Shown here: positions 60-58,866 of the stretch, in pieces
How the letters are laid out: every line of letters begins with the position of its first letter
Position numbering within the stretch: the stretch's first letter is position 1
From: Lactiplantibacillus songbeiensis
GTDB taxonomy: Bacteria > Bacillota > Bacilli > Lactobacillales > Lactobacillaceae
Reading direction: 5' to 3'
Assembly: GCF_005405125.1 (NCBI RefSeq)
Contig: NZ_BJDL01000026.1
Location: 1 to 61,229, forward strand
DNA: 61,229 nt
Made by a program: the position numbers and the translations under genes
The notes under the pieces: model-generated
Databases searched by the model: none
What the model saw: the letters and a program-made list of their open reading frames with translations, nothing else
What the model was told of the DNA's origin: nothing

Positions 60-157
60 CTTTTGGGGTACGCCTCATCTTTGGCTTCAAAATGGTCCAT
101 GGCGTTCCAGCGTTTTATGAACTAACCGGCAGGCGATAAGTCTAATTAAGACCAAAG
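60..157 (+). repeat. Truncated copy of the three-way-junction repeat (B type)
   Basis: The words TTTGGCTTCAAAATGG, CCATGGCGTTCCAGCG and the end-like TCTAATTAAGACCAAAG match the right part of the B-type repeats at 43338-43515 and 52310-52625. The left part is missing or lies outside the window. Bases 1-59 show nothing else recognisable. Confidence 0.6.
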
Positions 158-1980: not shown

Positions 1981-2290
1981 TTGCTAGTTAAATTGTCGTT
2001 TGGTGGCTAAAAATGCTGGTCATTTGAAGGCTAATCTTCAAAATTGATTGTTATAGAGACAAGCCTCACAGCTGAAGCAATTGTTGAAAAGCCATTTTTT
2101 AGTCATAGCTACCCAATCATTAGCGGCGGGCGGACCAGAATTGGCTCAGTGGTGTCGTTTATCTTAGTCGTGGTTTTCGACTTAGATAAAGCCCGGCTTT
2201 CGAGACCGATCTGTGGCTCGAAAACGTGGCCACCACGTTCCAGCCGATTCTGGGCCAACCAGAGTGGCAGTTTAATCTAACTAGCACTAA
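1981..2290 (+). repeat. Three-way-junction repeat, A type, with degraded B part on its left
   Basis: The A part shows a closing stem CAGAATTGGCT (2136-2146) with AGCCGATTCTG (2242-2252), a second stem 2158-2170 with 2178-2190 carrying a T-T mismatch inside CTTAG, and a third stem TTTCGAG (2198-2204) with CTCGAAA (2217-2223). The left 1981-2065 part (TTGCTAGTTAAATTG, AAAATGCTGG) is an eroded B-type unit. The right end AACTAGCACTAA matches the terminal repeat of other copies. Confidence 0.8.
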
Positions 2291-8610: not shown

Positions 8611-9066
8611 ATGGAGAAGCATGGATTAGACCCAATTCCCAAAAATGAAGTTGAACTAGAAGCAGAGCTTGAAGCCGTTGAGAAAAAAGCCAACAATGAA
8701 TTACAGTTATATGCGTTGTGGGGCGTGATTACGGTTGTGTTCAACGTCGCGTTGTTTTACTTGTTGTATCATACTTTTGGCGTTGAATATCAAGTCGCTA
8801 ACTTGATTGATTGGTTCTTTAGCGTTTTGTTCTCGTTTATCGTCAATAAAATGTTTGTCTTTCAGCATAAGACCGTTAGTCTGGTCAAAGAAGTCACGAC
8901 TTTTTATGGGACACGAGTGGCGACGTACGTCATTGAAGCCATCATTTTATGGTTGGGGATTTCGTTGATGGGTGTTAACGGGACGATGACTAAGGTGATT
9001 GGTCACGGAATTGCGTTAGTGGCTAATTACTTCTTATCGAAATGGTTAGTGTTTAAAAAGGATTAG
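8611..9066 (+). CDS. GtrA family membrane protein
   Basis: Four membrane segments (about residues 33-52, 63-82, 98-118, 126-146) after a charged, Glu-rich N-terminus of about 30 residues that could form a short coiled coil. The motifs NLIDWFFSVLFSFIVNK and GHGIALVANYFLSKW are typical of GtrA-like flippase/anchor proteins used in cell-envelope glycosylation. Located just after the M20 gene and probably co-transcribed. No glycosyltransferase is adjacent; the closest are at 20488-23531. Confidence 0.85.
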   Translation: MEKHGLDPIPKNEVELEAELEAVEKKANNELQLYALWGVITVVFNVALFYLLYHTFGVEYQVANLIDWFFSVLFSFIVNKMFVFQHKTVSLVKEVTTFYGTRVATYVIEAIILWLGISLMGVNGTMTKVIGHGIALVANYFLSKWLVFKKD

Positions 9067-9112
9067 TGGTCGGCTGGAGGCTATCACTCTGGTTGGGCCA
9101 GCATTAATTGGT
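9067..9112 (-). repeat. Small fragment of the A-type repeat
   Basis: GGCTGGAGG, CACTCTGGTTGGGCCAG and ATTGGTTCG resemble joined pieces of an A-type unit in minus orientation, heavily deleted. Confidence 0.4.
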
Positions 9113-9138
9113 TCGTTATTTTTATTCGCAATAAACTA

Positions 9139-9194
9139 AAAAGTATCAGTATTTAGTTAGTTTTAACGGCCAACTCGATACTGATACTTTTTTT
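9139..9194 (+). terminator. Bidirectional terminator-like hairpin, first copy
   Basis: AAGTATCAGTAT pairs with ATACTGATACTT, followed by T7. It probably ends the M20/GtrA transcript. A near copy lies at 9406-9462. Confidence 0.8.
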
Positions 9195-9206
9195 ATCGGC
9201 ATACCT

Positions 9207-9376
9207 GATGCTAGTTGGCTTAAATTGCCACTCTGGTTGGCCCAGAATCGGCTGGAACGTGGTGGCCGCGTTTGCGAGCCATAGTGCGGTCTCGCAAGCC
9301 GGGCTTTATCTAAGTCGAAGCCCATGACTAAGATAAACGACACCACTGAGCCAATTCTGGCCCGCCCGGCGTTATT
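9207..9376 (-). repeat. Three-way-junction repeat, A type, minus orientation
   Basis: Closing stem CAGAATCGGCT (9243-9253) with AGCCAATTCTG (9349-9359); hairpin TTGCGAG (9272-9278) with CTCGCAA (9291-9297); long hairpin from 9305-9317 to about 9338. Compared with the copy at 1981-2290 the hairpin arms changed from TTTCGAG/CTCGAAA to TTGCGAG/CTCGCAA, a compensatory change. The left end GATGCTAGTTGG...AAATTGCC is the terminal motif. Confidence 0.85.
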
Positions 9377-9405
9377 TTGATTATTGTTTTTATCGGTAGT
9401 CAAAT

Positions 9406-9462
9406 AAAACAAGTATCAGTATTTAGTTGGGTTAGCCAACTTGATACTGATACTTGTTTTTT
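9406..9462 (+). terminator. Terminator-like hairpin, second copy
   Basis: AAACAAGTATCAGTAT pairs with ATACTGATACTTGTTT around an inner AGTTGG/CCAACT stem, then T tract. Nearly the same hairpin as 9139-9194, with the A-type repeat between them. Confidence 0.7.
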
Positions 9463-9529
9463 GATTAGGGTTATCATGCTCCAAAGATTGTTTCAGTTTG
9501 ACCGTTTTAAAATAGGAGTGTTAATTAGC

Positions 9530-9686
9530 GCAGGGCGGGCTGGATGACGCTCAGTGGTGTCATTTGACTTAGAACGAGTGATTTTCTCGCTCTTAGTCAA
9601 AGCCAGGCTTATGAGACCGTACTTTGGCTCATAAACGTGGCCCCACGTTCCAGCGTCAATCCAGACCAACCGTAGCGGCAATTAAG
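9530..9686 (+). repeat. Three-way-junction repeat, strongly diverged A-type copy
   Basis: Same fold with largely different arms: closing stem CTGGATGACGCT (9540-9551) with AGCGTCAATCCAG (9652-9664, one bulged A); long hairpin TTTGACTTAGAACGAG (9563-9578) with 9586-9601, keeping the CTTAG/CTTAG T-T mismatch; hairpin TTATGAG (9609-9615) with CTCATAA (9628-9634). Unpaired words (CAGTGGTGTCA, GAGACCGT, ACGTGG, CACGTTCCAG) remain conserved. It abuts the stop of the MerR gene. Confidence 0.85.
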
Positions 9687-9689
9687 ATC

Positions 9690-10124
9690 CTATTCGTGAT
9701 GCTCCAAACGTTGCAAATAGGCGTGAAAGTTTTCCTGATCGGCAGTTAAGCCGGCTTCTTTTTCTTCGTACCAATTAATCTTGTCGTTCAAAATCTGAAG
9801 ATGGTGTTGAACTTCGTTGAATTGGACTAAGAAGTCGGCTTTAACTTGTTGTAGAAGCGCTAATCGTTGGGGAATCGTCGCATCACCTTGAGCTCGCCAC
9901 TGCACGTATTGTTTAAGTTCGCTGATGCTCATTCCCGTGCCCTTAAGATGTAATAAAAATTTGACCCAGTTGATGTCAGCTTCCTCATAGTAGCGACGGC
10001 CGTTTGTCAGTCGATGGGGTTCAATTAACCCTTCAGTTTCGTAATAGCGTAACGTTGGGGCGGTTAATCCCACGGCCTTGGCGAAGGCACCGATGGTATA
10101 GTGGGGTTCAGTTGCTGTTGGCAT
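9690..10124 (-). CDS. MerR family transcriptional regulator
   Basis: N-terminal winged HTH (YTIGAFAKAVGLTAPTLRYYETEGLI, given here in parts: IGAFAKAVGLT and TLRYYE) then a wing with RRYY and a dimerising helix (about 88-125). 144 residues, the size of AdhR/NmlR-type members, but no conserved metal-binding Cys is present; in fact there is no Cys. Divergent from the cupin/CMD-like/SDR operon, whose promoter has the 19 bp spacer and central dyad expected of a MerR target (10203-10233). It therefore most likely controls that operon. Confidence 0.9.
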   Translation of the reverse strand: MPTATEPHYTIGAFAKAVGLTAPTLRYYETEGLIEPHRLTNGRRYYEEADINWVKFLLHLKGTGMSISELKQYVQWRAQGDATIPQRLALLQQVKADFLVQFNEVQHHLQILNDKINWYEEKEAGLTADQENFHAYLQRLEHHE

Positions 10125-14014: not shown

Positions 14015-14245
14015 TTTGGTACTAAGGTTAGTGCTAAATAGTCAGTTATTTACAAGTAATCAAATCATTAACGCCGGGCGGTCCAGAATTGGCTCAGAGG
14101 TGTCGCTTATCTTAGTCGTGGGCTTCGACTTAGATAAAGCGCGGCTTTCGAGACCGTTCTATGGCTCGAAAACGTGGCCACCACGTTCCAGCCAATTCTG
14201 GGCCAACCAGAGTGGCAATTTATACCTGACTAGCACTTTAAGCAT
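14015..14245 (+). repeat. Three-way-junction repeat, A type
   Basis: Closing stem CAGAATTGGCT (14084-14094) pairs perfectly with AGCCAATTCTG (14190-14200). Long hairpin GCTTATCTTAGTCG to CGACTTAGATAAAGC (14105-14140). Third hairpin TTTCGAG (14147-14153) with CTCGAAA (14165-14171). The left end GTTTGGTACTAAGGTTAGTG and right end ACTAGCACTTTAAGC are weak terminal motifs. It separates TetR from the ABC exporter and ends about 10 bp before the permease stop. Confidence 0.85.
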
Positions 14246-32564: not shown

Positions 32565-32969
32565 ACGCTTGGTGCTAGTTAAAATTGCCGCCTGCTGGTT
32601 GGTTCCTAAAATGCTGGAACGCCATGGGCCATTTTGAAGCCAAAGCTCGGTCTTCAAAACTGACCTTGGCCTAAGTCCGAGCAGATCACTCGCACTAAGG
32701 CCAACGACACGGCTGAGCATTTTAGGAACCAACCTCTCGGCTAAATAACTGAACTGAAAATAATCAATCGTTAATTTTTCAATTCCCGTTAGTTAACGCC
32801 GGGCGGGCCAGAATTGGCTCAGTGGTGTCGTTTATCTTGGTCGGTGACTTTCCGACTTAGATAAAGCCCGGCTTGGAAGACCGAACTTCGGCTTCCAAAC
32901 GCGGCCACCACGTTCCAGCCGATTCTGGACCAACTAGAGTGACAATTTAAACCAACTGGTACTAAGCGT
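32565..32969 (+). mobile_element. Composite three-way-junction element, B+A, with terminal inverted repeats
   Basis: Left end ACGCTTGGTGCTAGTT, right end AACTGGTACTAAGCGT. B unit: 19 bp perfect closing stem 32597-32615 / 32716-32734, hairpin TTTTGAAG (32632-32639) / CTTCAAAA (32652-32659), hairpin 32668-32681 / 32689-32702. A unit: CAGAATTGGCT (32809-32819) / AGCCGATTCTG (32917-32927), TTGGAAG (32873-32879) / CTTCCAA (32892-32898). Flanks: ATTGAGTT (32557-32564) and ATTGAGGT (32970-32977), a likely target duplication. No ORF of its own. Confidence 0.8.
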
Positions 32970-38640: not shown

Positions 38641-38706
38641 AGTCAGTAGGATTGGTCCACTGACTGCCTGGTTCGTAAACTTCCCAGGATAAAAAACCAA
38701 GAACTT
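38641..38706 (+). ncRNA. preQ1-I riboswitch
   Basis: Aptamer: stem CCTGG (38667-38671) / CCAGG (38684-38688), loop beginning TTC and ending with the conserved CCC, then the A-rich tail ATAAAAAACCAAG (38689-38701) that folds back as an H-type pseudoknot. An upstream hairpin AGTCAGT / ACTGACT (38641-38665) precedes it. The ribosome site GGAGG starts about 14 bases after the tail and no terminator intervenes, so control of translation start is likely. Confidence 0.75.
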
Positions 38707-43337: not shown

Positions 43338-43515
43338 AACGCCGGTCAATGCTGGTCATGTTTGGAAGTCAAAGTATGGTCTTCCCAGCCAGGGGTTATC
43401 TAAGTCGGACAATCAACGACAGTTTTGAAGACCGGGTTTGGCTTCAAAATGGCCCATGGCGTTCCAGCGTTTTAGGAACCAACTGGCAGGCGGCAACTTC
43501 AATTAGCACCAAGCG
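43338..43515 (-). repeat. Three-way-junction repeat, B type
   Basis: Contains GGTTATCTAAGTCGGAC, TTTTGAAG / CTTCAAAA (43413-43420 / 43442-43449), CATGGCGTTCCAGCGTTTTAGG and the right end ATTAGCACCAAGCG. Left half diverged. The remaining bases 43209-43337 show no gene. Confidence 0.7.
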
Positions 43516-47186: not shown

Positions 47187-47258
47187 TATATAAGCTTTAG
47201 ACAGATAGTTATCGAATTAAAATTTTGTTGGGTCAGAATCGGCATTAATAGCAACTAT

Positions 47259-47649
47259 GCTTGGTGCTAGTTGCTATTGCCGCTTATCAGTTGGTTCCTA
47301 AAATGCTGGAGCGCCATGGGCCATTTTGAAGCCGAGACCCGATTTTCAAAACTGTCGTTGGCCTAAGTCCGAGCAGATCACTTGCACTTAGGCCAACGAC
47401 ACGGCTGAACATTTTAGGAACCAACGGCTCGGCTAAATTTGTGGTCGACAATAAATAATCATTAATTCTCGTTAACTAACGCCGGGCGGGCCAGAATTGG
47501 CTCAGTGGTGTCGTTTATCTTAGTCGGTGATTTTCCGACTTAGATAAAGCCCGGCTTGGAAGACCGCTCTTTGGCTTCCAAACGCGGCCACCACGTTCCA
47601 GCCGATTCTGGCCCAACCAGAGTGACAATTTAAACCAACTACAAGCGTG
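47259..47649 (+). mobile_element. Composite three-way-junction element, B+A
   Basis: Same order as 32565-32969: left end GCTTGGTGCTAGTT, B unit with GTTGGTTCCTAAAATG closing stem repeated in inverse near 47410-47425 and hairpin GGCCTAAGTCCGAG / CTTGCACTTAGGCC, then A unit with CAGAATTGGCTC (from 47492) and TTGGAAG / CTTCCAA hairpin. Flanks GCAACTAT (47251-47258) and GCAACCAT (47650-47657) look like a diverged target duplication. Confidence 0.8.
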
Positions 47650-52309: not shown

Positions 52310-52625
52310 ACGCTTGGTGCTAGTTGGTTTGAATTGCCACTCTGGTTGGACCAGAATCGGCTGGAACGTGGTGGCCACGTTTTCGAGCCAAAGGGCGGTC
52401 TCGAAAGCCGGGCTTTATCTAAGTCGGAAAATCACCGACCAAGATAAACGACACCACTGAGCCAATTCTGGTCCGCCCGCCGTTAACTAACGGCTATTAA
52501 AAAATTAACGATTGATTATTTTCAGTTTGGTCATTTAGCCGAGCCGCTGGTTGCTAAAATGGCCCATGGCGTTTCAGCGGTTTAGGAACCAATCGGCGGG
52601 CGGCAATTTCAACTAGCACCAAGTG
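52310..52625 (-). mobile_element. Composite three-way-junction element, reversed, B part shortened
   Basis: Minus-orientation A unit first (CAGAATCGGCT from about 52351, TTTTCGAG / CTCGAAA, CCAATTCTG near 52464), then a B unit that lost both inner hairpins (GGTTGCTAAAATGGCCC...TTTAGGAACCAATC). Ends ACGCTTGGTGCTAGTT and AACTAGCACCAAGTG. Flanks TAACTAATCT (52300-52309) and TAACTAACCT (52626-52635) are a probable target duplication. Confidence 0.8.
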
Positions 52626-52901
52626 TAACTAACCTAACAAACAAAACTGTTTCACCCCAACCGCAAGCGCCTGTCATCCCAATCTCATATATCAAATCCC
52701 ATAACAGCAGGTCGTAAGTCACTAAAATCCAACGCAACTGAAATAAAATACAGTATGAATTTTTTCAATTATTACATTTTCTTCAAACTTTTGTAAGGTT
52801 GTGTAACTTAATTGCAACGTTAATGTTGTCGAATCTAAAGAAAACTAGATTATTATTAAAGTAATTGGAAAATATTGAATTTTTTGTACATAAATGATTA
52901 A

Positions 52902-58639: not shown

Positions 58640-58866
58640 TAACAATTAAAAGTAGTGACCTTTAATGAGTAGTGGCTAGCCCAACAGTTAAGCGACTCGG
58701 TGGATGGTGTGAACCGGGCTGTGACTAGTGATGAATTACATAAAGTGAACTGCCATTTCGGCCGGCTGATTGCGTTATTAATCATGAGAGATCACGATCT
58801 TTAGTGATAACTTGGGTGGTAACGCGGTAAACTCGTCCCTGTTTTTAGACAGGGGCGAGTTTTTAT
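58640..58866 (+). ncRNA. T-box riboswitch, tyrosine specific
   Basis: The T-box core GGGTGGTAACGCG is at 58814-58826, followed by the terminator ACTCGTCCCTG (58831-58841) / CAGGGGCGAGT (58850-58860) with T tract. The specifier loop GAATTACATAA holds TAC (58737-58739), a tyrosine codon. Uncharged tRNA-Tyr should stabilise the antiterminator and switch on tyrS. Confidence 0.93.

Follow-up and report, generated by a model that had tools for sequence, protein, structure and literature searches.

The window, the whole stretch of 61,229 nucleotides from Lactiplantibacillus songbeiensis analysed here, carries copies of a repeat whose ~140-nt unit folds on its sense strand as a three-way junction, made of a closing stem, a CTTAG hairpin with a U-U mismatch and a GAGAC/GGCTC hairpin. 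The units stand head to head in pairs, and the class that bears terminal inverted repeats (TIRs) is a MITE-like mobile element. The reading that we prefer, and consider about evenly poised between right and wrong, is that of a non-autonomous mobile element of Lactobacillaceae, MITE/REPIN-like, built of head-to-head ~140-nt units whose fold most likely acts in RNA as a cis structure.

Covariance model R2 detected nine clear copies of the unit in the window (83-127 bits), a larger family than the original prediction, which had counted at least six units of shared architecture. The featured copy, at 9532-9671 (+), is part of an element located in the gap between a gtrA-like gene (8611-9066) and a convergent merR-like gene (9690-10124). 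Nine strong units, a weak tenth unit, a partial unit at the left edge and the associated repeats are distributed as follows; unit coordinates without a score were obtained with the covariance model.

9522..9681 (+): featured subfamily A unit, right-hand member of a head-to-head dimer; model match 9532-9671, 139.8 bits with model R1 and 113 bits with R2
9540..9551 (+): closing stem, 5' arm, with its partner at 9652-9664
9554..9559 (+): GTGGTG, which lengthens the closing stem; the pairing segment at 9641-9646 is damaged in the featured copy
9563..9601 (+): hairpin 1, TTTGACTTAG ... CTTAGTCAAA; its CTTAG/CTTAG bears the conserved U-U mismatch
9609..9634 (+): hairpin 2, TTATGAG/CTCATAA
9652..9664 (+): closing stem, 3' arm
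9235..9368 (-): subfamily B partner, left half of the dimer with the featured unit
9201..9218 (+): degenerate TIR (4 mismatches) of the element at 9.2-9.7 kb; no right-end partner repeat detected
2127..2260 (+): unit B, no partner detected
14075..14208 (+): unit B, likewise no partner detected
32565..32582 (+): left TIR of a complete 405-bp element, 2 mismatches
32597..32735 (-): unit C, left half of the 405-bp element
32800..32935 (+): unit B, right half of the 405-bp element
32952..32969 (-): right TIR of the 405-bp element, 3 mismatches; flanked by an 8-bp duplication that has one mismatch
43339..43484 (+): degenerate unit, 21.9 bits with R1; 19.7 bits, E 0.005, with R2 (43372-43484)
47257..47274 (+): left TIR of the element at 47 kb, 2 mismatches; a right repeat was not found at up to 4 mismatches
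47289..47427 (-): unit C, left half of the element at 47 kb
47483..47618 (+): unit B, right half of the element at 47 kb
52310..52327 (+): exact TIR of the element at 52 kb
52344..52479 (-): unit B, left half of the element at 52 kb, which is in the other orientation
52609..52626 (-): right TIR (2 mismatches) of the element at 52 kb, which spans 317 bp and is flanked by the 9-bp duplication AACTAATCT/AACTAACCT
80..155 (+): probably what is left of a unit C half (repeat family D3; 9.4 bits, E 2.7)

The hairpin arms that had been described as differing between copies were all located: TTTCGAG/CTCGAAA at 2198/2217, 14146/14165 and 52381/52400 (at most 1 base from the coordinates first given), TTGCGAG/CTCGCAA at 9272/9291, TTGGAAG/CTTCCAA at 32873/32892, TTATGAG/CTCATAA at 9609/9628 and TTTTGAAG/CTTCAAAA at 32632/32652. 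Both of the claimed closing-stem types are also present in the window. The description of single units is to be corrected in that the real element is a head-to-head dimer of them: 9235-9368 (-) with 9532-9671 (+), 32597 (-) with 32800 (+), and 47289 (-) with 47483 (+). Two similar terminator-like palindromic hairpins (AGTATCAGT...ACTGATACT) lie at 9138-9195 and 9402-9462, on either side of the B unit at 9235-9368. The window also contains a T-box leader (58646-58843) and a PreQ1 riboswitch (38662-38706), both at Rfam gathering score.

RNAalifold on 37 copies from the L. songbeiensis genome (60 copies reduced to 39 non-redundant ones, then to 37 by leaving out the truncated L017 and the chimeric L030) returned the closing stem, a GTGGTG/CACCAC extension and the two hairpins, with 47 pairs of which 18 are changed on both sides. 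Covariation was scored with an R-scape-like test, not R-scape itself, using the G statistic with APC and null alignments evolved on a FastTree tree. A lack of significant covariation had been named beforehand as refuting the predicted fold; 19 column pairs covary significantly in a model-aligned set that spans many species (58 of 67 sequences used, nine dropped), one of the pairs at the limit E 0.05, and all 19 fall in the three-way junction, to which this alignment was fitted. A structure-blind alignment of own-genome copies gave four significant pairs, all in the structure, and a MAFFT realignment of 75 sequences, also structure-blind, gave 14; 11 of these belong to the structure, and the remaining three miss a pair by 1-2 columns. 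The fold exceeds chance, with a mean z of -7.6 (40 of the 75 sequences). The A3 alignment left out 3 of 153 matches.

In the featured copy the GTGGTG/CACCAC helix is damaged by a one-base loss, with GCCCCACG in place of GCCACCACG. The word CAGTGGTGTC had been listed among conserved unpaired words and is not unpaired, as its GTGGTG pairs with CACCAC and columns 24-211 and 25-210 covary significantly. A third hairpin, ACGTGG/CCACGT, was weakened as a candidate by uncompensated variation at the Y of ACGYGG and by the covariation of GTGGTG/CACCAC in its stead. The original statement of selection on structure and not on primary sequence is half right, since GCTCAG, CTTAG (twice) and GTTCCAGC are highly conserved words across genera. 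In 50 of 52 cases CTTAG/CTTAG has U-U at its centre, and an A-G mismatch is found in 36 of 52 by a regex count.

Changes inferred on the trees of three partly overlapping alignments indicate that Watson-Crick pairs pass to G-T more often than to A-C, with counts of 110:55, 56:25 and 55:15 (p = 2e-5, 8e-4 and 2e-6, respectively; 16 of 150, 4 of 67 and 1 of 52 rows dropped as short or identical), in a test to which a model that credits G-U pairs when finding and aligning copies may lend a small bias. The ratio is 61:30 (p = 0.0015) in a sample of 41 orthologous pairs and 17:12, not significant, in the 21 high-scoring orthologs of contiguous regions alone. Decay to G-T at 2 to nearly 4 times the rate of decay to A-C implies that the fold of one strand is selected, and it speaks against neutral change or template switching, both of which predict equality. 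The predicted minimum free energy of the sense strand is below that of the antisense strand in 61 of 75 sequences. One strand therefore appears to matter as a single strand. Where the original prediction suggested a functional RNA or a structured single-stranded DNA, the single-strand role is upheld by the tolerance of G-T over A-C on the sense strand, and that strand may act either as RNA or as ssDNA.

A model search found at least 150 units each in the L. songbeiensis genome and in that of L. dongliensis (G008). A protein encoded nearby (97%) points to L. dongliensis as the nearest named relative of the host, and its contig NZ_BJDK01000050.1 holds the same locus. BLAST against the own genome gave 272 and 340 candidate places, the best 40 of each being scored. 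In 345 kb of own sequence there are 61 units at ~22 bits or more, which would extrapolate to some 500 units; that figure is an upper guess, since the stretches were chosen around known copies. Matches occur in 19 of 21 genomes of the genus, and genus members G001 and G002 gave none among the best 150 candidates scored. Across Lactobacillaceae, 42 of 201 genomes in 9 of 40 genera match (best 16 candidates scored per genome), and in an order-wide sample 26 of 395 do (best 8 candidates scored per genome), 25 of them in Lactobacillaceae and the sole other match being weak (E 4.6e-4). Named carriers are L. nangangensis, L. garii, L. plajomi and L. modestisalitolerans, together with plasmids of L. 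plantarum and L. paraplantarum. Three queries had no match among plasmids; a unit of the G019 type matched 23 plasmid records, and in 16 of these the match covers 80% or more of the query. The search of phages returned no match, 720,688 bases of viral contigs gave none at E ≤ 1, and no unit was found in any of 80 out of at least 120 viral contigs that share a 15-base word, nor in one more with the TIR word. In Rfam 15, with which a comparison had been proposed at the outset, no family reached the gathering score for the units of the window and for six loci of other copies, and a permissive scan of 9100-9800 yielded low-scoring matches alone, far below gathering scores; a known Rfam RNA is ruled out on this basis. 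Literature searches among open-licence PMC papers listed none on this repeat.

Close neighbours (<500 bp apart) are arranged head to head, (-)(+), in 38 of 41 cases in contiguous regions, own units and L. dongliensis orthologs being counted apart, and in 21 of 22 close pairs of a second genome (G020). The spacers between paired units vary from 35 to 321 bp; 13 own-genome spacers showed no mutual match at E 1e-3, the longest ORF across 22 spacers has 49 codons, and no promoter was seen by eye in a few of them. By eye, the spacer of a head-to-head pair in another genus (L202:1112-1500) contains an Fst-like type I toxin-antitoxin-like module and a terminator.

In the B/C class, the C half is a diverged inverted homologue of the other half and the pair is enclosed by TIRs of ~18-25 bp; predicted energies of two 404-bp B/C elements are -175 and -204 kcal/mol. 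The TIR word ACGCTTGGTGCTAGTTG occurs, with up to 2 mismatches, at 181 places in the own genome (90 forward, 91 reverse) versus none for the word read backwards. All but one of 19 TIR-to-TIR spans measure 227-405 bp, and the remaining span of 5361 bp holds ordinary genes. Target duplications of 7-9 bp with at most one mismatch flank 9 of 18 two-TIR elements, as opposed to none of 306 pairings of the left flank of one element with the right flank of another; none was found for the other nine elements. One own copy, whose left end is without the outermost bases of the terminal repeat, is precisely absent from L. dongliensis, where TAAGTAAG occurs once instead of twice. Several other copies missing from L. 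dongliensis leave element ends there, for which reason several losses look like internal deletions. The 9-bp duplication of one element, at L078:7785, falls within 15 bases that match the outer portion of a B unit, which could reflect a nested insertion; the rejoined flank matches the B unit over just these 15 bases, and the case is not claimed.

No autonomous element came to light among the loci and the one transposase family searched: the long TIR-to-TIR spans hold ordinary genes, none of eight proteins from three loci with distant TIRs is a transposase, and the own genome has no IS256-type (PF00872) transposase. Several own-genome contigs (among C8, C9, C10, C12, C17, C18, C23, C27, C29 and C34) end within ~400 bp of a TIR, so that the elements may break the assembly. 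Judged by eye, A-type elements have no clear TIR or target duplication. Several A-type units are accompanied by a diverged partner, D, that shares their loop words, and family D (CCGTCTCCGTTGACCAG...GGTCACTGCGAC), seen beside A units at L008, L029, L026 and L103, has by eye three hairpins with these words; it may be a second class of structured unit.

Comparison with L. dongliensis reveals how copies change after insertion. For the 61 own units in contiguous regions, a unit is present at the orthologous site in 33 cases, absent in 17 and on the other strand in four, and seven lack synteny. In the 21 high-scoring shared copies, 77 of 1953 paired positions (3.9%) are changed versus 75 of 911 unpaired ones (8.2%; p = 4e-6). 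The 12 low-scoring or replaced pairs show no difference between stems and loops (25.1% and 25.2%), probably because different copies occupy the site in several of them, and all 33 pairs together give 10.9% paired and 13.8% unpaired. In an overlapping sample chosen by score (41 of 52 pairs, 11 having been dropped), 4.8% of paired and 9.9% of unpaired positions are changed, alongside 7.9% of coding and 13.8% of adjacent intergenic positions. Retained high-scoring copies thus look constrained, in a test whose pairs were conditioned on their model score. Among 44 L. dongliensis units, the nearest one is the ortholog for 18 of the 21 high-scoring own units. Mean ortholog identity is 0.947; the best non-ortholog mostly lies at 0.84-0.96, and the median of 0.776 over all non-orthologs takes in other subfamilies. 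Four ortholog sites hold a copy nearer to a paralogue than to the site copy. Own element L056 shares 98% identity with an L. dongliensis element that occupies another site (L159), the copy at its own site being outside its four best matches. In-place inversion between the two species was considered for five apparent cases; in one (L026/L124) the site copy is the best match, at 84% versus 82% for the next, and inversion is not claimed.

Nearly all units are intergenic: 103 of 105 are outside predicted ORFs and two inside, by crude ORF calls that leave out ORFs of <150 codons over units. Gaps that bear an element are tandem, convergent or divergent in 37, 14 and 12 cases, versus 230, 62 and 65 for gaps of at least 40 bp, and a separate count of 41 elements gave 18, 12 and 11. 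A 3' UTR or terminator element between convergent genes was rejected, there being no strong bias of gap type. No gene-orientation bias is apparent either, with 23 sense and 19 antisense high-scoring units in tandem gaps, and no replication-strand bias was found in the near-complete genome G020 (39 of 69 strong units, the origin being assumed near base 1).

We propose the following explanation. Since TIRs flank the pair in one subfamily, the element would be moved in trans by a transposase that makes 7-9 bp duplications. The two halves are inverted, 5' end towards 5' end, so that transcripts reading through from either side would end in one sense unit and the element would work alike in either orientation, which would explain the absent orientation preference. 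The sense unit would be a cis-acting structure in RNA, serving as an RNase block, a processing site or a termination site, and this would make insertions tolerable and retained copies useful. The data show the fold, the dimer, the mobility of the class with TIRs, the strand specificity and the slower change of stems in high-scoring shared copies; transcription, RNA function and the role in tolerability are what we infer. Action in read-through transcripts is weakened by the lack of orientation bias (23:19), which is odd for an mRNA element. A further-reaching statement, to which we give tentative credence somewhat short of probable, is that the units are an uncatalogued structured RNA class of Lactobacillaceae, in which a head-to-head pair spread by a transposon gives the same functional RNA when read from either side and forms an orientation-independent mobile RNA module selected at many loci per genome.

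The main rival, possible and in our judgment less likely than the preferred reading, is structured ssDNA acting in transposition, as proposed for REPINs, in which the paired units are ends recognized by a transposase on one strand and selection on the copies that move keeps the fold. The nearly universal inversion of close pairs and the variable spacers suit it, and it accounts for strand specificity and pairing nearly as well as an RNA does, because strand asymmetry fits ssDNA too. It is opposed by the constraint on high-scoring copies after insertion at orthologous sites, by the absence of replication-strand bias in G020, and by the architecture of an element with TIRs and 7-9 bp duplications, which to our knowledge is not the IS200/REPIN mode. 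We regard as improbable an inert MITE with a fold that is a mere by-product of inverted repeats. Such an element would be mobile, carry inverted repeats, settle between genes and be lost by internal deletion, as several copies were; however, the covarying helices lie inside one unit and not between the inverted halves, and neither the strand asymmetry nor the slower change of stems in retained high-scoring copies is expected of it.

Still more improbable, and disfavoured, is a mutational artefact in which template switching in quasi-palindromes rewrites one arm from the other and produces compensation without selection. Hairpin arms do change in blocks, and double changes from one Watson-Crick pair to another are common (78, 151 and 260 inferred events), but this process predicts equal G-T and A-C counts and leaves unexplained the conserved words, the retained U-U and a covarying closing stem with arms ~100 nt apart. 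Concerted evolution, with ectopic gene conversion keeping copies alike and moving both arms together, has a similarly slight probability: chimeric copy L030 (at least one of the 60 own copies), with closing-stem halves from two subfamilies that do not match each other, the four sites with a copy nearer a paralogue and the match of L056 at another site are in its favour, and the status of the ortholog as closest unit in 18 of 21 cases is against it.

The preferred reading, a mobile element with a fold acting in RNA, places the repeat between known systems. It has TIRs (in the B/C subfamily) and target duplications and is short, non-coding and present in many copies, as MITEs are; it has the inverted doublet of REPINs and not their REP unit, the unit here being ~140 nt. 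In form it is a MITE built REPIN-like, each half a large structured RNA-like unit. Repeated structured RNAs tied to mobile DNA are exemplified by HEARO, and unlike HEARO and other structured RNAs in Rfam, the units described here score with no Rfam family at gathering level. REPINs, according to the portion of PMC3116915 consulted, are inverted doublets of palindromic REP units with spacers, extragenic and in high copy, form a replicative unit and are predicted to fold in ssDNA or mRNA; all but the last point describe a likeness to our element. The REP unit is given as 20-40 bp in the abstract of PMC3733652, unlike the large three-way junction found here, one class of which has TIRs and 7-9 bp duplications. 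In the Bacillus cereus group, the accessible text of PMC3446304 presents bcr1-bcr18 as interspersed intergenic repeats, of which bcr1-3 are MITE-like and bcr10 and bcr18 have a conserved structure predicted to act as RNA, with about half of the copies expressed; bcr1 measures 147-167 bp according to an excerpt of PMC2267715. We liken these repeats to ours by description, not by sequence; they belong to another host family, and the same portions of text describe no dimeric three-way junction. Efa-1 of Enterococcus faecalis (163 bp, 65 copies) is, in that excerpt of PMC2267715, likewise intergenic with a conserved structure, a likeness again of description and not of sequence; our order-wide scan, in a sample that may or may not include E. 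faecalis, yielded one weak match outside Lactobacillaceae.

Should the fold function as RNA, lactobacilli of food and probiotic use have a large RNA module, unnamed in the searches made here, in at least 150 copies in some genomes, with effects to be expected on the ends of transcripts, on genome rearrangement and on breaks in assemblies. The many orthologous copies, the strand-specific signal and the availability of easy model strains make the repeat a natural system for testing whether an RNA function is the reason that mobile repeats persist, and G001 and G002, without matches, are useful for asking what the elements depend on. Among such model strains is L. plantarum, which has the repeat on plasmids: in NZ_CP023773.1 a unit (L263:3011-3151), with no listed gene over it, lies between a hypothetical gene and a gene for a heavy-metal P-type ATPase.
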